From positions 1 through 54,597 of the forward strand of contig CATLTV010000009.1 in assembly GCA_950059285.1 (NCBI GenBank): DNA of 54,597 nucleotides, given 5' to 3'. Source of the DNA: an uncultured Pseudomonadota bacterium (GTDB taxonomy: Bacteria > Myxococcota_A > Bradymonadia > Bradymonadales > Bradymonadaceae). Position numbers and translations under genes: made by a program. This document shows positions 81 to 7,831 of the stretch, piece by piece. A model generated the notes under the pieces. It saw only the letters and a program-made list of their open reading frames with translations, was not told the DNA's origin and ran no database searches. Position 1 is the stretch's first letter. Each line of letters begins with the position of its first letter.

Positions 81-103
81 AGAGTTACAATATAAATGAG
101 AGC

Positions 104-805
104 ATGATTCGCTTTTCGAATGAAATTTTTGTGCACAAAAACTGTTCTCAAAATATTATGAATGAACTGATCGAGTTTAATCGTTTAATAATGCATAATA
201 ATAAAGCTCAATGGCATGATACCAGAGTCATTCCTAATGTATGGTATTTTCAGTGTTTTATGAACACTTTTTCATGTCTTTATACAGAACCATCGTTTAC
301 CCATGACGAGTTAAAGTTTATTAATAATGGGTGTGTTATGTTAAGTGAGTTTTGTGAGCATACACTATCATCTTATTGGTCTTTATTTTTAATGATTCCC
401 AGAGATTGGTTATATAGATATTATTTTAATCAGAATTCAAACTTATTCGATTTAGATATTACTGACGAGTTAAATTTAGCACTCAATTCTATTAGTCTAT
501 TGCAACCAAACATTAAAGTTCAAAATTATGAGAAATGGTCTGAAGATTTTCATGATGATTTTGACTATCCCATTGGGTGGGTAAATAGTCACGATTTTAT
601 TTATGATGGTGCTATGCATTTTGTAGATGAAGAGGCATTAAATTTGTTTGAAAGCTCTGGCCTACATGTAAAAGGCTATCCATCATATTCTTTGTGGGAT
701 CCAATTATTCATGAACAATTATATTCGGCAAGTAGAGCTTATTCTACCATCACAGCAACTCATATACTGTTGGTTTGTTCTCTTGATCACAATTTCTGGG
801 GTTAA
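104..805 (+). CDS. AT-rich orphan protein, 233 aa, unknown function
   Basis: An uninterrupted 233-residue frame starting at ATG 104. The protein is rich in Asn, Phe, Tyr and Asp and has no signal peptide or convincing transmembrane segment. Its coding sequence is clearly AT-richer than the core genes from 6.7 kb onward, which points to transfer. I recognise no family. A cytosolic, acidic and aromatic protein of this length next to the end of another gene and close to a broken DUF1963-like gene would fit an immunity protein of a polymorphic toxin system. That is inference from context, not from a recognised motif. Confidence 0.6.
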   Translation: MIRFSNEIFVHKNCSQNIMNELIEFNRLIMHNNKAQWHDTRVIPNVWYFQCFMNTFSCLYTEPSFTHDELKFINNGCVMLSEFCEHTLSSYWSLFLMIPRDWLYRYYFNQNSNLFDLDITDELNLALNSISLLQPNIKVQNYEKWSEDFHDDFDYPIGWVNSHDFIYDGAMHFVDEEALNLFESSGLHVKGYPSYSLWDPIIHEQLYSASRAYSTITATHILLVCSLDHNFWG

Positions 806-989
806 TTACCCTTCTTTTGTCATCATGGGAATGAAAGGGGTAAGGGGTGCATTACCAAAAAGGGGGTAAGTTCACATAAAGCCTCCGAGGTTTATGAATG
901 CTGGACTTGAATCCGCTCGACTTCAGGTCTAAGCGTCAAGCACCCTTTATATTGACACTCCCATTAACAACAAATAGGATTTGTTAATT

Positions 990-1295
990 ATGATAATTAA
1001 ATTCGACAATACTACTCAAACATTAACTCATAGTGACATAGAGAATCAGTGCAAAAATAACAGCGCAGAAATAATTATAGATTTTCAACATATTAATATT
1101 GAATCGCATAGTAAAACAGAGAGTTTTTTTAATATTAAAAAACTAAAAATTGTCAATTATAATAAAAAGTATAAAGATCATTTTATATACATAAGTTCGT
1201 TATTCGGAGACATTGAAGAATTTTCATTTCTGGACAGTGTTTTTGATGATCATGTAGTGCCCCCCGAGAATCAAGCCACTTTGTGTGAAAGCTGA
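990..1295 (+). pseudogene. AT-rich orphan gene truncated by the IS element
   Basis: An ATG at 990 is preceded by AGGAT about 10 bases upstream; a TTG at 981 is an alternative start. About 88 residues are native, rich in Ile, Asn and Lys (beginning MIIKFDNTTQ). The frame then enters the left inverted repeat of the IS at about 1253-1255 and stops inside it at 1295, so the last ~13 residues are IS-encoded. The original 3' end is not present on the far side of the IS. This suggests the IS took part in a deletion, or that the two flanks come from different genes. Function is unknown and base composition matches the 104-805 gene. Confidence 0.55.
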
Positions 1296-2155
1296 GCGCG
1301 AAACTCAGCGGGTGAAAGATAACCAAGAGACTGGTGAGGACGTTGGGTATTGTAGAACTCCACCCACTCCTCGATCGTGTCTCTGGCTTGCTCAAAGTCT
1401 TCAAAGTTGTGCAGCCAGATGCATTCCTCCTTGAGCGAGCGGAAGAACCGCTCCACCATCCCGTTCTGTTGCGGTGTATAAGGCGTGATGAATTCTTGCT
1501 CGACTCCATACTGCGTGCTGCACGCTGTAAATGCCCTCGATGTAAATACTTTCCCATTGTCACTGCGCAGCACCGGACGCTGCTCCTCGAGCTCGGGATA
1601 GGCCAGTCCGAATCGATAGATACACGCCGCTTCCAGGGCTTGCTGTGCTTCTGTTGCGCGTCCATTCTTGCTCACGTGAATCGCCACGATTTCTCGGTCG
1701 TGACAATCGATGATGGCAAAGATGCCTATCCATCCGTCTTTCTCGCACCATGTGCTTGTCATGTCGATGGCCCAACGCTCATTGCTGACCTCAGCCTCCG
1801 ACTTCCACCCCTGCACACGCGGTCGAGGTGTACGGTTGAACAGGCGCACTTGAAGCCCATACTGCCTCATGATGCGCCGCACTCGCTTGCGGTTGATCAC
1901 GATATCTTCTCGGTTGCGCAGCCATGCACACACCCGCCTGTATCCCCAGGTTGGAAAGCGTTCGGTGATGGCTTTGATGCGCTCCACGATGTGTGCTTCA
2001 TCACGCGCCTTGCGCACTTTCGCAAGGTCAATCACGTCAGCCTCATCGTCGAACTCAGATGTTTGCTTGTGACGCCACATCGTCGAGCGGTTGAGCCCCA
2101 GAACCTGACACCACTGTCTTTCCGAGAGATGAGAGAACTCCTCGACTTGCGTCAA
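1271..2155 (-). CDS. IS3-family transposase OrfB (DDE integrase domain)
   Basis: This 294-residue protein is the catalytic half of an IS3-type transposase. It has an N-terminal HTH_21-like region (TWGYRRVCAWLR near residue 68) and then an rve integrase core. The DDE residues are visible in WAIDMTSTW, LRSDNGKVF and QQNGMVERFFRSLKEE, and the typical C-terminal RPHQSLGYLSPAEF is present. The start is a TTG whose bases overlap the TGA stop of orfA (TTGA), in the -1 frame relative to orfA, so translational coupling or a frameshift fusion is expected. No stop or frameshift is seen, so it could still be active. Confidence 0.92.
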   Translation of the reverse strand: MTQVEEFSHLSERQWCQVLGLNRSTMWRHKQTSEFDDEADVIDLAKVRKARDEAHIVERIKAITERFPTWGYRRVCAWLRNREDIVINRKRVRRIMRQYGLQVRLFNRTPRPRVQGWKSEAEVSNERWAIDMTSTWCEKDGWIGIFAIIDCHDREIVAIHVSKNGRATEAQQALEAACIYRFGLAYPELEEQRPVLRSDNGKVFTSRAFTACSTQYGVEQEFITPYTPQQNGMVERFFRSLKEECIWLHNFEDFEQARDTIEEWVEFYNTQRPHQSLGYLSPAEFRAQLSHKVA

Positions 2156-2490
2156 CTCTGGGAGGAGTCCTCGCAGGCTAAAGGGTCGATACCAAGCTTC
2201 TTGTAGACCGTCCTGTGGATCTTGTCCTGAAGGGTTAACTTGCCGACTTCCTTGTATAATTCGTCGATCTCTTTTTGTTTGAGTTCAAGGTCATGGCGAG
2301 GATTGGAACGCAGCGCGTTCTCACCGGCGTTCAAAAAGTCTTTCTGCCAGCGCTCGATGTCACTCTGTTTGAGGTTGTATTGGCGTGCGGCTTTGGAGGC
2401 GGTGATCTGGCCTCGCAAGATTTGCAGCACGAGCTCGGTGCGTCGTTTGGCGGTCCAACGCTTGATCTCGGGGGTGTTCGATTCGGTCAT
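2152..2490 (-). CDS. IS3-family transposase OrfA (helix-turn-helix)
   Basis: About 112 residues starting MTESNTPEIKRW. RRTELVLQILRGQ and SKAARQYNLKQSDIERW form the helix-turn-helix that binds the IS ends, followed by a leucine/charged segment (LELKQKEIDELYKEVGKL) expected to be the dimerising zipper. A start 12 bases further upstream (2502) is also open. The TGA stop overlaps the TTG start of orfB. The size and arrangement match IS3-family OrfA proteins. Confidence 0.88.
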   Translation of the reverse strand: MTESNTPEIKRWTAKRRTELVLQILRGQITASKAARQYNLKQSDIERWQKDFLNAGENALRSNPRHDLELKQKEIDELYKEVGKLTLQDKIHRTVYKKLGIDPLACEDSSQS

Positions 2491-2527
2491 GTGATACTCC
2501 AAAAGTCCAGTGAGCGCGAAGGGCTCT

Positions 2528-2587
2528 CATCGAAGGGGAGACAAGCTCCCGAACAGGTTCATAGGGGGTCTTGTCTCCCCTTCGATG
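2528..2587. repeat. 18-bp hairpin inside the IS upstream of orfA
   Basis: Left arm 2528-2545 and right arm 2570-2587 are perfect reverse complements (CATCGAAGGGGAGACAAG) with a 24-nt loop. It lies between the right inverted repeat and the transposase start, so any transcript entering the IS from outside would carry it just upstream of the orfA ribosome-binding region. Some IS elements use such a structure to prevent transposase expression from impinging transcripts. That role is inferred here. Confidence 0.7.
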
Positions 2588-2652
2588 CTCGCACACTTCT
2601 TGCTCAGTGGCGACTCAATAAGGGTGGCTTCACTTCTCTCGGGGGCACTATA

Positions 2653-3110
2653 TCGCGTCTCTCCTGCTTCTGAGATAATGAGTCGTGAAGACGAGTGGAG
2701 CATTAACCCAAATCATCCTCTTGAAGTGACTGAGTTTGTGCCATTCGTATCTTTAACTATTTGTGATGCGTCAGAAGAACTGTTCAATGACAATATAGAA
2801 GCCAATGAACGGTATCAGGAATGACAATATAGAAGCCAATGAACGGTATCAGGATATGGTGGCACAGCTTCTTGTCTTACCTGGAGAAAACGCGTCTTCT
2901 TCCAAGTTGTTAGGTTATCCAAATATGGTTTGGGATGGTTTAGATTACGATTTCCAAAACGAAGAATTTCTCACGATTGAATCTACTATTATAGATGGAG
3001 AATGGTATGCACTGTTTTGGGATGCAGGTCATCTTTGTGTCACGCTGTCAGCAAATCAAATTCAAGAGATGAACTTTGATGGCTCTCAGGTCAGTATCTT
3101 CTCCCCTTGA
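2653..3110 (+). pseudogene. DUF1963 (YwqG)-like gene, 5'-truncated and frameshifted
   Basis: The frame is open from the IS boundary, through an in-frame ATG at 2678, to a TGA at 2822. A second frame then runs to 3110. The break is caused by a 34-bp direct tandem duplication (2786-2854); removing one copy joins the frames into one protein. Its C-terminus, KLLGYPNMV then FWDAGHLCVTLSANQIQ and NFDGSQVSIF, has the pattern of the DUF1963 family (LLGYP, then W/F-GDAG-LYF-I). The family's N-terminal half is missing, lost at the IS junction. DUF1963 proteins occur in polymorphic toxin immunity loci. As it stands the gene should not give a full product. Confidence 0.7.
2786..2854. repeat. 34-bp exact tandem duplication
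   Basis: The unit beginning AATGACAATATAG is repeated exactly twice with no spacer, plus one shared base. Because 34 is not a multiple of three it shifts the reading frame of the DUF1963-like gene and creates the TGA at 2822. It looks recent because the copies are identical. Confidence 0.95.
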
Positions 3111-3237
3111 TTAACTTAAGCCTAAACTGGGTAACCATTTTAAGCTAACCTGCGAGCCCGTGCGCTGCGTAAGCCTATACGGAGTAAGCACTTTATCCAA
3201 GTGTGCCATCAACGGCGAGACAATCGGCGAGACTGGT

Positions 3238-4275
3238 TCAGCGCGTTGTTGTCTTGACCCGTTCTTGCTGCCTCTCCTTTTCCTCTAAGGCTTTCTTCTT
3301 TAACTTTTTAAAATCAGAATCTTTTACTTCATAACCCATAGGTTTGACTTCTTTGATGTGCTTATAGAGATTTTGGTAATAGTCTTCTGAGCCATCACTC
3401 CTTTCGAGCGCCCCTTTGATATCCATGTTTACTTTTTTGAGTATTTCACTTTCGCACGATACATCACGGCTTTTTTCATTGTATTGACAACTAAGTTCAT
3501 GCAAAGACATTTCATAATCATAATCACTTGGGTCCATACGATACTCGAACATGCTCAATGAGATCTTGTAGAGGCGTTTGGTCCATTTTAATTCGTCATT
3601 ATCTGTCCACGACAGACTTGAGAATCGCTCGTATTTTTTGTACGGCCACCATAGCCATCCCCTTTTAGCTTCTGAGTAATTAAAGTAGTCATGCATGACA
3701 ATTCTACTGCCTTTGACTTCTTCAAGTTCGGACTCGTCGAGATGAAATAAAAACTCATGGTGTGATTCTCCTCCTCGACAACCTCCTACATGTACTTCTA
3801 ATAATAAAGTTCCCTCCTTTGTGTAATTTCTGAATCTCGCACTTGCGGTATTCCCACCAGAACTGCAAATGTCAGCTGTGACTTTTGGATTCCCATCCAA
3901 ATACCCTCCAGATATACCGTAAGCGTGAAACTCTAAATCTCCATTTTTCCTGCATACAATCCAATCTGAAAAAGATTGGCCATGATAGGCAAATATATAA
4001 AAATATTCTGTTTTAAATGCAACTAATCCAATGATTGGATATTTGGGGACATTAACAAAGCAGGGCTTCTTCCGCATACGACTCCATGCCTTAATTGCGT
4101 ACTTCTGCTTTAGAAGGGTCACACCTCTTTCTGGCATCCAATAAGTGCTTTCAAACAAGCGTTTTTGAGTTTCCTCCTCAATATCGACATCAGGGAACTC
4201 AGATTTTTCTTGTGCATTGGACTGTGAGGATACGCACAACAACCCACACAGTAAAACTAACTTTTTCCATGTCAT
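3238..4275 (-). CDS. Exported protein of unknown function, 345 aa
   Basis: The start is ATG 4275, preceded closely by GGAGGGGAT. It gives a clean signal peptide, MTWKKLVLLCGLLCVSSQSN, with likely cleavage after NAQ. A longer open frame to 4332 lacks these signals. The mature protein is hydrophilic, with several cysteines spread through it (CFVN, CRKNGD, CSSGG, GCRGGES, CQYNE, CESEI), suggesting disulfides in a periplasmic protein. The C-terminus is Lys/Glu/Arg-rich and probably helical. I recognise no family. It lies on the opposite strand to its neighbours within the accessory region. Confidence 0.65.
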   Translation of the reverse strand: MTWKKLVLLCGLLCVSSQSNAQEKSEFPDVDIEEETQKRLFESTYWMPERGVTLLKQKYAIKAWSRMRKKPCFVNVPKYPIIGLVAFKTEYFYIFAYHGQSFSDWIVCRKNGDLEFHAYGISGGYLDGNPKVTADICSSGGNTASARFRNYTKEGTLLLEVHVGGCRGGESHHEFLFHLDESELEEVKGSRIVMHDYFNYSEAKRGWLWWPYKKYERFSSLSWTDNDELKWTKRLYKISLSMFEYRMDPSDYDYEMSLHELSCQYNEKSRDVSCESEILKKVNMDIKGALERSDGSEDYYQNLYKHIKEVKPMGYEVKDSDFKKLKKKALEEKERQQERVKTTTR

Positions 4276-4526
4276 ATCCCCTCCTTCTTCAAAACGGCGA
4301 CGGGACAAAAACCGTAAGAGAGCTGCCATCATTCCCAGTCAAGACAACACGCGATGAACTCACAGGTAAGACGATAAATGAAGCGCGTAAACCTGTACAA
4401 TTGAGCCACACTGCATCCTAGTCCACTTCTTGCCTACAAGTTCAATAACAGTTAGTCTGACTGATTGCTGCTCCAGATAGTGGCGAGCCCTCTGAAAATA
4501 CAAACCCACCCCCCTTCACCAAGAGA

Positions 4527-4868
4527 GTGAGCCTGAATGTCAAACAACAGATTCAAAGAACAATGAAGAACATATTGAGGCGAGTGTGGCACGCCTTGTC
4601 CTCTTCAAGTCAAAACAAACAAGAGGTTCAAGCCCAGATTGAGGAACAATACAATGTTTATATCCATATACTCCATCCCATGATTGAATTGGCCTCAGAA
4701 GCGCAAACAACAGTTGAGCAGCTACTGCAACAAACCGCACTAACTCCTTCCCAGCCAATCAAGCCACACCCACAACAAGGTCTGGTCCTTTATGTCCAAT
4801 GTTCACTGCAACAACTAGATCTCCTCACACAAACACTTACCAAAGCTGGCCTTGAGGTCGTTCTTTGA
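4527..4868 (+). CDS. Small hypothetical protein, 113 aa
   Basis: The frame starts at GTG 4527; an ATG at 4563 would give a 101-residue form. It is Gln-rich and predicted to be helical in the middle (QKNKQEVQAQIEEQYNVY, then MIELASEAQTTVEQLLQQ), with no signal peptide. No ribosome-binding site is convincing for either start. No family is recognised. It precedes the small membrane-protein genes in the same direction and may belong to the same mobile unit. Confidence 0.4.
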   Translation: MSLNVKQQIQRTMKNILRRVWHALSSSSQNKQEVQAQIEEQYNVYIHILHPMIELASEAQTTVEQLLQQTALTPSQPIKPHPQQGLVLYVQCSLQQLDLLTQTLTKAGLEVVL

Positions 4869-4972
4869 GCACACCTACTCCCATCGTAAACCACACGCCA
4901 AACCAGCAATCCGCTACACCAGACTCGCCACAACCTCATGCACCATCACCAAAAATCAAGTAAACGACTTCG

Positions 4973-5248
4973 ATGACCGCACCAACACACGATGAGCTCG
5001 CAGGTGAGCTCCAGGACGCTGCGCCACCTCATCACATCATCCAGACGTCAATTCACACCCTGCCCCAAAGATGCAAAGAAATTTACGAGCGTAGTTATGA
5101 CGTTGATAGGTCCATGTTTTTGAACGTATTCAGGGAGGTTAAAAGGAAGCCAACCTTTACCAGTCAAAAATGGTGGTGGGTTGAACATATCGCCAGTAGT
5201 AGTTTAATTCTGGCTTATGCTCTTCACCATGTAACCGAATCATCATAA
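4973..5248 (+). CDS. Small protein with WWWVE-type membrane tail, 91 aa
   Basis: The N-terminal ~60 residues are hydrophilic. The C-terminal ~30 carry KWWWVEHIASSSLILAYALH, a likely membrane segment. This tail is clearly related to that of the protein at 5810-6037 (QWWWVEYIALGSLILAY), and the similarity also shows at DNA level (tggtggtgggttga). The two are probably duplicated genes. Function is unknown. Fifteen bases separate its stop from the next gene, so the pair is probably one unit. Confidence 0.5.
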   Translation: MTAPTHDELAGELQDAAPPHHIIQTSIHTLPQRCKEIYERSYDVDRSMFLNVFREVKRKPTFTSQKWWWVEHIASSSLILAYALHHVTESS

Positions 5249-5262
5249 AGTTATCAAAGCAC

Positions 5263-5454
5263 ATGCACGATGACCCAAAAAAGAACCGATACAAGGATGT
5301 CGCAATAGCCACCATGCTATGCGGACTCACAACAGCCATCATCAGCTTCATCCTTGAGTTTACACAACCGAACCACGCGTACATTGTCCGATTACTCGCC
5401 ATCCTCATGGGTTTATTAGCTCTTTTCTTACGCCAGAAATGGAGTCAACTTTGA
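5263..5454 (+). CDS. Small two-helix membrane protein, 63 aa
   Basis: Two hydrophobic segments (IATMLCGLTTAIISFILEF and YIVRLLAILMGLLALFL) are separated by a short polar loop (TQPNHA). The N-terminus is basic and acidic (MHDDPKKNRYKD) and probably cytoplasmic. The gene follows the 91-residue protein by 15 bases. Holin-like or immunity-like small membrane proteins have this form, but nothing specific identifies it. Confidence 0.45.
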   Translation: MHDDPKKNRYKDVAIATMLCGLTTAIISFILEFTQPNHAYIVRLLAILMGLLALFLRQKWSQL

Positions 5455-5464
5455 ACTCAACGAG

Positions 5465-5488
5465 ATTGCTCCACAAAAATGGAGCAAT
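5465..5488. terminator. Short hairpin after the first small-gene pair
   Basis: ATTGCTCCA and TGGAGCAAT form a 9-bp stem around CAAAAA, just after the 5454 stop. There is no clear T-tract, so termination is only possible. Confidence 0.35.
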
Positions 5489-5505
5489 GATGGAGCAAAA
5501 CAAAA

Positions 5506-5570
5506 ACGCGCTTCTCCAAGCAATTGGAAAAGCGCGTCTTTTTGAGTGGATTCGGTGGGAATCGAATCCG
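5506..5570 (-). repeat. Decayed copy of the ssrA 3' end and terminator (att-like)
   Basis: Positions 5538-5570 repeat the tmRNA 3' end at 6716-6748 with about 28 of 33 matches, including the GGGAATCGAA of the T-arm complement. The mismatches destroy T-stem pairing. Just before it, the 32-nt hairpin 5506-5537 is the exact reverse complement of the genuine ssrA terminator hairpin 6684-6715. tmRNA 3' ends are known integration sites for genomic islands, and a displaced partial copy is what past insertion leaves behind. The inverted hairpin is not explained by simple duplication. Confidence 0.7.
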
Positions 5571-5809
5571 TTTAACCACAAATGCAAGAACTCAGCACTA
5601 TCAACAACTTCGACCTATCCCTTTGGTTTTTATTTGGTTTTGCCTTACCTTGCTTTATCACACATGTCCTGTTCTATTTCGTGTGCTCCAAAATAAAGGC
5701 ATACCAGGAACACATTCACAGGCCCCTCTTCACCAATCAAACCAACTATAATATTCGACATAAGCACAATTTGAAAACAAAACACAAATTCAAATCAAAA
5801 GGAAAGACG

Positions 5810-6037
5810 ATGAACAAACCAATCAAACAAGACAAGCCACCACCAAAGAAAAGACTAAGGATAGAGCTCGCCCACGCCATGTTCCTACTTTCAATAACAA
5901 TGACTCTGTGTACCATCATCTTATGGATTACAGGGCATCGAACACAATGGTGGTGGGTTGAGTATATTGCACTGGGAAGCTTAATTTTGGCCTATATATT
6001 TCGCTATGGAGTACAGCATGACTCACAAAACAGATGA
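5810..6037 (+). CDS. Small membrane protein with WWWVE motif, 75 aa
   Basis: ATG 5810 is preceded by AAAGGAAAG, a good ribosome-binding site. The open frame continues upstream to 5582, but this start is better supported. A basic N-terminus precedes two hydrophobic segments (AMFLLSITMTLCTIILWI and WVEYIALGSLILAYIF) separated by GHRTQWW. The second segment matches the tail of the protein at 4973-5248. The gene overlaps the next by 20 bases, so the two are probably co-translated. Function is unknown. Confidence 0.55.
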   Translation: MNKPIKQDKPPPKKRLRIELAHAMFLLSITMTLCTIILWITGHRTQWWWVEYIALGSLILAYIFRYGVQHDSQNR

Positions 6038-6236
6038 ACATAACGAAAACTGGGGAGGAGCTCGTGAAGGCGCAGGACGGGAGACGCTTGGAGCTCTTCC
6101 CTCATTTTCCAAAACGCTTCGATTACCAGGAGAATGGAAAGCCCGTCTTGATGCTGCTCGAATTGACGGGGAGAAGGACTCCGAGTTGATACGTCGTCTT
6201 CTTGATGAGCGGTTGATTCAGATAGAGAGCAAGTGA
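6018..6236 (+). CDS. Ribbon-helix-helix-like small protein with GGAREGAGR motif, 72 aa
   Basis: ATG 6018 has GGAG about 6 bases upstream. The N-terminal WGGAREGAGR matches the GGxRxGAGR motif common at the start of small plasmid, phage and island proteins. The C-terminal half (GEWKARLDAARIDGEKDSE, then LIRRLLDERL) looks like a ribbon-helix-helix-type DNA-binding fold. A role as a small regulator of the mobile unit is plausible; the DNA target is unknown. An inverted repeat at 6273-6330 just downstream could be an operator. Confidence 0.6.
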   Translation: MTHKTDEHNENWGGAREGAGRETLGALPSFSKTLRLPGEWKARLDAARIDGEKDSELIRRLLDERLIQIESK

Positions 6237-6272
6237 AGTTTTGATATTGACGGAACACAACTCATATACCCG

Positions 6273-6330
6273 TCATGCAAAATTGAAAACGTGTACAGAA
6301 TAATAACGACAGATACTCAACTTTGCATGA
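6273..6330. promoter_or_regulatory. Inverted repeat between the RHH-like gene and a small ORF
   Basis: TCATGCAAAATTG (6273-6285) and CAACTTTGCATGA (6318-6330) are inverted with one mismatch and separated by 32 nt. They sit between the RHH-like gene and the small ORF at 6368. Two half-sites in this position could be a paired operator or a long-loop hairpin. Confidence 0.4.
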
Positions 6331-6367
6331 CAACCTTTCTGCCATAACCAATCAGGAGGGTTATTTT

Positions 6368-6442
6368 ATGTTTAATGTATTAGATTTTCCGCACACCATC
6401 ACTATCGACGACTATCTCACTGACGATGAGTGGGATGAGTAG
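6368..6442 (+). CDS. 24-residue acidic ORF with a strong ribosome-binding site
   Basis: ATG 6368 is preceded by AGGAGGG with ideal spacing, the best ribosome-binding site in this accessory region. It encodes an acidic peptide ending YLTDDEWDE before a TAG at 6440. After the TAG the same frame stays open for 30 more codons (LDEQKNTPLDTEN and on) to a second TAG at 6533. The gene may be a short peptide, or a 55-codon gene with an in-frame amber mutation. No homolog is recognised. Confidence 0.4.
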   Translation: MFNVLDFPHTITIDDYLTDDEWDE

Positions 6443-6683
6443 CTTGATGAGCAGAAGAATACACCGCTTGATACCGAGAACCTACGCACCAGCAACACCT
6501 CACAGCACAATAGCAAGCACGCCAACCACTCGTAGGCAGCGCACGCTCCAGTACCAAGCTCGTCAAGTCACGTCGCACAAACTGCACACAACACCACTCT
6601 CCACACGAAGGTGACTCTGGCACATTACAGATGTGGTGGCGTTGCTTGACAGCGCTCACGGAGAATATACGGAGAAAAGCAAA

Positions 6684-6715
6684 ACGCGCTTTTCCAATTG
6701 CTTGGAGAAGCGCGT
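6684..6715 (-). terminator. ssrA terminator hairpin
   Basis: A 32-nt near-palindrome, arms ACGCGCTTtTCCAA and TTGGaGAAGCGCGT, lies 9 bases beyond the tmRNA 3' end on the minus strand. The T-run on the plus strand (6715-6721) lies between the hairpin and the tmRNA. Its exact reverse complement occurs at 5506-5537. Confidence 0.65.
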
Positions 6716-6724
6716 TTTTTTGAG

Positions 6725-7129
6725 TGGAGGCGGCGGGAATCGAACCCGCGTCCACAAACCTTCGGCGTCAACGAATCTACGTGTGTATTCCATGATTATT
6801 GCTTAACCTCCAAGCGGGCTGTCCATGGACAGGCCACCCGAAAAGAGGACACTTGGAAATGTCGTGTCAAGTCCAAGTATGAACCCCTTGACACCAAGTC
6901 CGCTAATCGACGCCACCAGAGGGCCGCAGACACTCCGCCCTGGTGACGTGCTCTACAAAGAGAGCAGTTGCCCCCTAAGGGGCAATGGCTTATGCAGCCA
7001 TTGCCTCGTAGGAGAGCTCAACGTTATCGTTGGCAATTATAGTGTTTCTGAGATTCATTAACGAGGCTATTCAGACACCTCGACACGCATCGTTGCCCTC
7101 ATTGCCCGTGTCGAACCCAGATCGCCCCC
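6725..7129 (-). ncRNA. ssrA: tmRNA (transfer-messenger RNA)
   Basis: The 5' end GGGGGCG (from 7129) pairs with CGCCTCC at the 3' end (complement of 6726-6732) to form the 7-bp acceptor stem with one G-U pair. The 3' T-arm GCGGG-TTCGATT-CCCGC is intact. The tag frame runs from a GCC at 7034 to a TAA at 6990 and encodes ANDNVELSYEAMAA, with the AA ending needed for proteolysis. After the discriminator A the genome reads CTC, so CCA is not encoded and must be added. With SmpB, the RNA rescues ribosomes stalled on broken mRNA. Its 3' end is the apparent island insertion site. Confidence 0.95.
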
Positions 7130-7324: not shown

Positions 7325-7831
7325 TTAGCGCCAGTCGCCTCGCATACGGTGATGCTGTGCGTGCGCTCGAGCCACGTCCCTGGCCGCTTCTCGCTTGGCT
7401 ACAGACTCGCGTTTATCAAACTGCTTCTTACCCTTACACAATCCAATCTCGCACTTCACGCGGCCATCCTTCAGGTACAAACTCAGAGGAATCAGCGTGA
7501 ATCCTGCCTGCTCCACCTTGTTCTGTAACCTGCGCAGCTCGCGCTTGTGCAACAACAACTTGCGTGGACGCTGCGGCTCGTGGTTCTCATGTGTGCCCTT
7601 GGAATATGGCGAGATATGCGCGCTGAGCAACCACAGCTCGTTATCATCAAAACGAGCGTAGGCATCTACAAGCTGAACCTTGTGATCGCGCAAACTCTTG
7701 ACCTCTGTACCCAATAACACGATGCCCGCCTCATAACGCTCCTCCACAAAATAATTGTGCAGAGCCTTGCGGTTACGTGTCAGCACATGATCCGCGTTTG
7801 TGCTGGCTGTTGATTTCTTCTTGCTCGCCAT
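7325..7831 (-). CDS. smpB: SsrA-binding protein SmpB
   Basis: This 168-residue protein matches SmpB throughout: NRKALHNYFVEERYEAG near the N-terminus, LLGTEVKSLRDHKVQL, DAYARFDDNELWL, then AHISPYSKGTHENHEP and RKLLLHKREL, LIPLSLYLKDGRVKCEIG and the basic tail KKQFDKRESVAKREA. SmpB folds as an OB barrel that binds the tRNA-like domain of tmRNA and places it in the A site of stalled ribosomes; the basic tail occupies the empty mRNA channel. The tmRNA gene lies 195 bases downstream on the same strand, a common and functionally matched arrangement. Confidence 0.97.
   Translation of the reverse strand: MASKKKSTASTNADHVLTRNRKALHNYFVEERYEAGIVLLGTEVKSLRDHKVQLVDAYARFDDNELWLLSAHISPYSKGTHENHEPQRPRKLLLHKRELRRLQNKVEQAGFTLIPLSLYLKDGRVKCEIGLCKGKKQFDKRESVAKREAARDVARAHAQHHRMRGDWR

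Follow-up and report, generated by a model that had tools for sequence, protein, structure and literature searches.

In the stretch studied here, mobile elements of the tyrosine-integrase type have probably integrated at the tmRNA gene (ssrA) at least twice, with the 3' end of the gene as their attachment site. The window is a complete contig of 54,597 bp, belonging to a genome of 6.65 Mb in 441 contigs. The tmRNA gene is a well-known landing site for mobile DNA, and the locus is a decayed tandem ssrA integration site of a well-known kind. The evidence consists of a second, displaced copy of the ssrA tail and terminator, a pair of direct repeats just past each terminator, and a break in synteny at the ssrA 3' end.

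The tmRNA gene and its displaced tail

One tmRNA gene was found on the contig, on the minus strand, with bounds of 6724–7129 according to ARAGORN and 6722–7129 according to Rfam (RF00023, 174 bits). The gene is intact and its 3' end would be the integration target. The encoded tag, ANDNVELSYEAMAA, has 14 residues; the other family members seen have 11–12. One side of the locus is conserved in the family, as judged by tblastn to 10 family loci, and is marked by smpB (7325–7831, minus strand). The 3' side of ssrA is shared only within one genus of the family, and synteny is lost from the ssrA 3' end onward, which is also the case at other integration sites. Since almost no gene is shared between genera on the downstream side, synteny could not be used to define the far end of the island. 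A scan for smpB in a wider contig set yielded mostly spirochaetes and no close relatives.

The last ~40 nt of ssrA and the terminator behind it are present twice, as had been noticed in the sequence-only reading. Positions 5492–5582 align with 6671–6758 at 80% identity over 91 nt (E 5e-16), and a second alignment pairs 5497–5570 with 6675–6748 (82%). The two copies have the same orientation and lie 1,178 bp apart; a third copy was not found in the whole genome (6.65 Mb). Each copy can be divided into a core and a hairpin, all on the minus strand. The intact core half of the attachment site, comprising the T-arm and acceptor 3' end of the tmRNA, spans 6720–6758, and the adjoining ssrA terminator hairpin, with a GCAA loop on the ssrA strand, spans 6681–6719. 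The decayed core is located at 5541–5582 and the second hairpin at 5502–5540.

The two halves have not diverged to the same extent. The displaced core differs from the intact one by 6 substitutions in 39 nt, all of them from G or C to T, and by a 2-nt insertion; the one-directional nature of these changes fits decay in AT-rich surroundings. The terminator copies match at about 32 of 40 nt in direct orientation and at 38 of 39 nt on the opposite strand. The near-perfect match is obtained only after inversion, so that the terminator hairpin was flipped and otherwise hardly altered, and strong folding is predicted for both copies. The divergence is thus 1/39 for the terminator (once inverted) versus 6/39 plus a 2-nt gap for the core, and uniform decay does not predict such a difference. 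Our guess is that the terminator was kept by selection, possibly also serving the gene at 5263–5454. The decayed tail contains, at 5544–5570, a perfect 7-bp inverted repeat (GGATTCG...CGAATCC) with an 8-nt loop that the intact gene does not have; this is either chance or a core-type site.

Direct repeats past the terminators

A direct repeat with a spacing of exactly 11 bp is found just past the intact terminator (TTCTCCGTataTTCTCCGT) and just past the decayed one (TTGCTCCATcaTTGCTCCAT). The repeat search placed the former at 6658–6676 on the minus strand (TTCTCCGTATATTCTCCGT; layout TTCTCCGT-ATA-TTCTCCGT) and the latter at 5479–5498, also on the minus strand (TTGCTCCATCATTGCTCCAT; layout TTGCTCCAT-CA-TTGCTCCAT), with 8 and 9 matching bases, respectively. 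An inverted third unit of the older repeat, TTGCTCCA, is present at 5466–5473 on the plus strand. When the tail copies are aligned, both pairs are at about equal offset, and two positions distinguish the intact pair from the decayed one, each being changed alike in the first and the second unit. Coordinated changes of this type are the pattern expected if one protein would read both units, and we consider the repeats to be putative integrase-binding arm sites. The pattern CTCCRT-N5-CTCCRT (with one fixed T) occurred at only these two places in a search of the 6.6-Mb genome. No matching arm pair was found inward of the displaced tail, where one would be expected for a full att site of the newer unit. 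Some viral contigs matched the arm patterns; no tRNA or tmRNA was located near these matches, and they were treated as chance.

The spacing was also assessed in a sample of 78 ssrA flanks, taken from relatives and from the phylum as a whole (L091–L110, L160, L162 and L171–L230). Uninterrupted repeats of at least 7 bases at a spacing of 11 were present in 14 flanks, versus 1.4 expected from first-order Markov resampling. In the same survey, a spacing of 10 gave no flanks, a spacing of 12 gave 7, and the remaining spacings from 6 to 30 gave 0–4. The repeat sequences themselves vary from genome to genome. A tyrosine integrase was detected within about 1.6 kb downstream in 6 of 14 flanks with 11/12-bp repeats and in 4 of 56 without (p=0.003, an approximate value because the 11/12-bp grouping was chosen after the data had been seen and the integrases had been called with a custom-built profile whose seed sequences came from this genome). 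Perfect direct repeats at 11-bp spacing, and less so at 12-bp spacing, may be a general marker of integration sites. The survey suggests that the 11-bp spacing past ssrA could help to recognise rapidly, in fragmented genomes, integration sites that are or once were occupied; at the present locus, an old integration scar that is free of integrase is still readable from the arm-site repeats.

The newer unit, the older island and the integrases

The newer unit, 1,178 bp long, is bounded by the two ssrA 3' copies and has no integration module between them (5582–6723); its open reading frames are intact and overlap. The first, at 5582–6037 on the plus strand, encodes a probable membrane protein of 151 residues, or of 75 residues from an internal start at 5810, the latter including WWWVEYIALGSLILAY. 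No Pfam match over the cut-off and no PHROG match was obtained for this frame, nor anything convincing in relatives. The second, at 6018–6236 on the plus strand, encodes a small protein with a GGAREGAGR N-terminus and a C-terminus that resembles a ribbon-helix-helix (RHH) fold. Its weak PHROG match to 'Arc-like repressor' (E 0.025) makes it the only small gene of recognisable type, namely a putative Arc/RHH-like DNA-binding protein, and its N-terminus is 54% identical over 24 residues to an ORF on a viral contig. Most likely, these genes remain from a phage- or island-type element, in which they were cargo or had a regulatory role.

To the left of the older arm-site pair are two small ORFs on the plus strand, assigned to the older element: one of 91 residues at 4973–5248, containing WWWVEHIASSSLILAY and having no database match, and one of 63 residues at 5263–5454, probably a two-helix membrane protein, which ends about 25 bp before the arm-site pair and is absent from the 188 other genomes searched. 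Overall, the small proteins had no convincing homologs in Pfam, PHROGs, plasmids, phages, viral contigs or the 58–189 genomes searched. The visible part of the older island (82–5478) is made up of AT-rich orphan genes (104–805, 981–2824, 3238–4332 and 4527–4868) and an IS3-type insertion at about 1262–2650, recognised by its transposase domains (Pfam), with the second orphan gene being interrupted. Next to this, at 2786–2853, the orphan gene already interrupted by the IS3-type element carries an exact 34-bp tandem duplication. The G+C content is 32–47% outside the insertion sequence versus 51–52% in the flanking chromosome, and with a G+C content as low as 32–46% it is plausible that the upstream accessory genes arrived by integration at ssrA as well. 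The first 81 positions of the contig include 77 bp that are identical to the ends of two other contigs (C68 and C11) and that are probably the end of a multi-copy insertion sequence. Because the contig starts in multi-copy sequence, the far (left) end of the older island cannot be read. On C68, the shared sequence adjoins a leucine-rich-repeat-like gene.

The sequence-only reading had proposed two related mini-islands, each a set of small genes with a homologous membrane segment. The membrane segments do align (5169–5231 with 5946–6008, 71% over 63 nt; at the protein level 57% over 23 residues, with a genome-wide E of 2.8e-4), and this similarity, short as it is, is probably real. It does not extend to the gene sets: no similarity was detectable in the rest, the neighbouring ORFs differ, and the tmRNA tail follows the block after 328 nt in one unit but only after 729 nt in the other. 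The relatedness of the islands thus comes down to one 63-nt block, and calling the two sets homologous as sets would be a weak claim. Both boundaries are visible only for the right-hand unit, as the left element continues past the start of the contig.

A Phage_integrase search detected no integrase on the contig, so that 'mini-island' could equally be 'deletion remnant'. Of the five integrases present in the genome, two look like XerC/D on inspection, and another looks like an integron integrase. A link of any of these to the ssrA site was rejected, as CTCCRT repeats were near none of them. The regular-expression check around the integrases covered four of the five contigs, and the genome-wide pattern search covered the whole genome; as no further occurrence of the arm pattern turned up, it lies beside none of the five.

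No tail duplicate was present in the 16 loci of the same family that were read, each over 0.3–8 kb downstream of ssrA. In other parts of the phylum, a tail duplicate with no integrase detected in between was seen at four loci, at about 78 bp (L175), 0.7 kb (L200), 1.4 kb (L189) and 5.7 kb (L207) past ssrA, and integrase-free intervals at ssrA are thus not unique to this genome. At L200 (G075:C39), the tail copy is an exact match of 38 bp and the interval holds a 66-residue ORF; this interval would be a younger analogue of the 1.18-kb unit.

Origin of the locus and comparison with known systems

Successive integration at ssrA, as the sequence-only reading had suggested, is favoured by the attachment-site anatomy of both copies and by the lack of a duplicate in the 16 same-family loci. 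In such a scheme, an integrase would join the attP of the element, which carries a copy of the tmRNA tail, the terminator and the arm sites, to the chromosomal tail. The ssrA gene would be rebuilt from the copy of the element and the old tail pushed to the far end of the element. A second integration at the rebuilt site would then displace the first site. Since a new element inserts between ssrA and the downstream DNA, the displaced tail at 5541–5582, with its own terminator and arm pair to the left, would be the old attL and would also mark where the newer unit ends. The order that we infer for the two events corresponds to the arrangement ssrA, attL(new), the newer unit (about 5.58–6.72 kb), attR(new)/attL(old) at 5479–5582, and the older island leftward, continuing beyond the start of the contig. 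Both integrases would later have been lost by deletion. The points against two integrations are that there is no integrase on the contig, no inner arm pair, a size of 1.2 kb, and a terminator that has diverged far less than the core. For this genome, the result marks the 3' flank of ssrA as an island hotspot.

In principle, a local tandem duplication of the DNA between the membrane gene and the ssrA 3' end, both included, with later divergence of the copies, could yield the same order of membrane block and tmRNA tail in both units, with two homologous blocks, and would involve no integrase. However, the similarity is confined to stretches of 63 and 91 nt, with about 265 and 665 nt without any in between. 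The coordinated differences in the repeats also speak against such an origin, as does the synteny break at the ssrA 3' end, which has its counterpart at other integration sites; we regard this origin as improbable. Chance or an assembly artefact is hardly credible: the stretch does begin at a contig end with a 77-mer common to two other contig ends, but the diverged copies are well inside the contig, they match with an E of 5e-16, and the arm repeats are coordinated.

The 1.18-kb unit could also be a non-autonomous mini-element, moved in trans by an integrase encoded elsewhere; besides an att site, a terminator and arm repeats, it would carry only two or three tiny genes. The intact, overlapping ORFs are consistent with this, as are the integrase-free intervals of 0.7, 1.4 and 5.7 kb at L200, L189 and L207, and 15 of the 31 Dehalococcoides ssrA islands have no integration module and are read as cis-mobilizable or fixed remnants (PMC3146451). 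Against it, none of the searches turned up another copy of the unit or a relative, a second arm pair is missing, and the CTCCRT pattern accompanies none of the five integrases; a mini-element of this kind is very improbable. The same low probability applies to an undescribed class of integrase-less ssrA mini-elements, moved in trans and with two members here; beyond a tmRNA tail, a terminator and an arm-site pair, each member would hold just a few tiny genes, of membrane and RHH type. Overall, at least two integrations at ssrA by tyrosine-integrase elements remain our preferred reading.

Genomic islands at tmRNA genes, including tandem arrays, were reportedly described by Williams in 'Traffic at the tmRNA gene'. 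In the Islander collection, the tmRNA gene is the most enriched integration target, and island sizes peak at 13.6 and 39.9 kb (PMC4383910). The present locus resembles these tRNA/tmRNA islands in having a regenerated tmRNA gene and a displaced 3' fragment in the same orientation. It differs in that there is no integrase between the tDNA and the fragment, that the att identity block is damaged (6 substitutions and the 2-nt insertion), and that the 1.2-kb unit is far below the typical island size; the Islander rules would reject the locus because the integrase is absent and the fragment has decayed. The Dehalococcoides ssrA-GIs (vinyl chloride respiration islands) lie in tandem downstream of ssrA and are delimited by copies of its 3' end (PMC3146451). 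The unit described here is likewise bounded by two ssrA 3' copies and devoid of an integration module; it differs in its longer, though diverged, repeat and in measuring just 1.2 kb between its bounds. The Dehalococcoides islands use serine recombinases (DsiB/DsiA), whereas at the present locus the arm repeats speak for a tyrosine integrase.

A further likeness is to the tmRNA attP of the Cluster K1 mycobacteriophages CrimD, Adephagia and Anaya, which consists of a T-stem core, a stem-loop terminator and paired 11-bp arm sites; from one related phage to another, the arm-site consensus changes along with residues of the integrase (PMC3203893). In K1 phages, arm pairs flank the core and an integrase is linked, whereas here the repeats are on one side and no integrase is linked; arm repeats on the other side were not found for the newer unit, and the contig stops short of the older element's far end. 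The host phylum and the sequences are also different. The layout, however, with a T-stem core, then a stem-loop and then paired repeats, equals that of the published K1 tmRNA attP, and both copies are therefore read as attachment-site halves of tyrosine-integrase elements.
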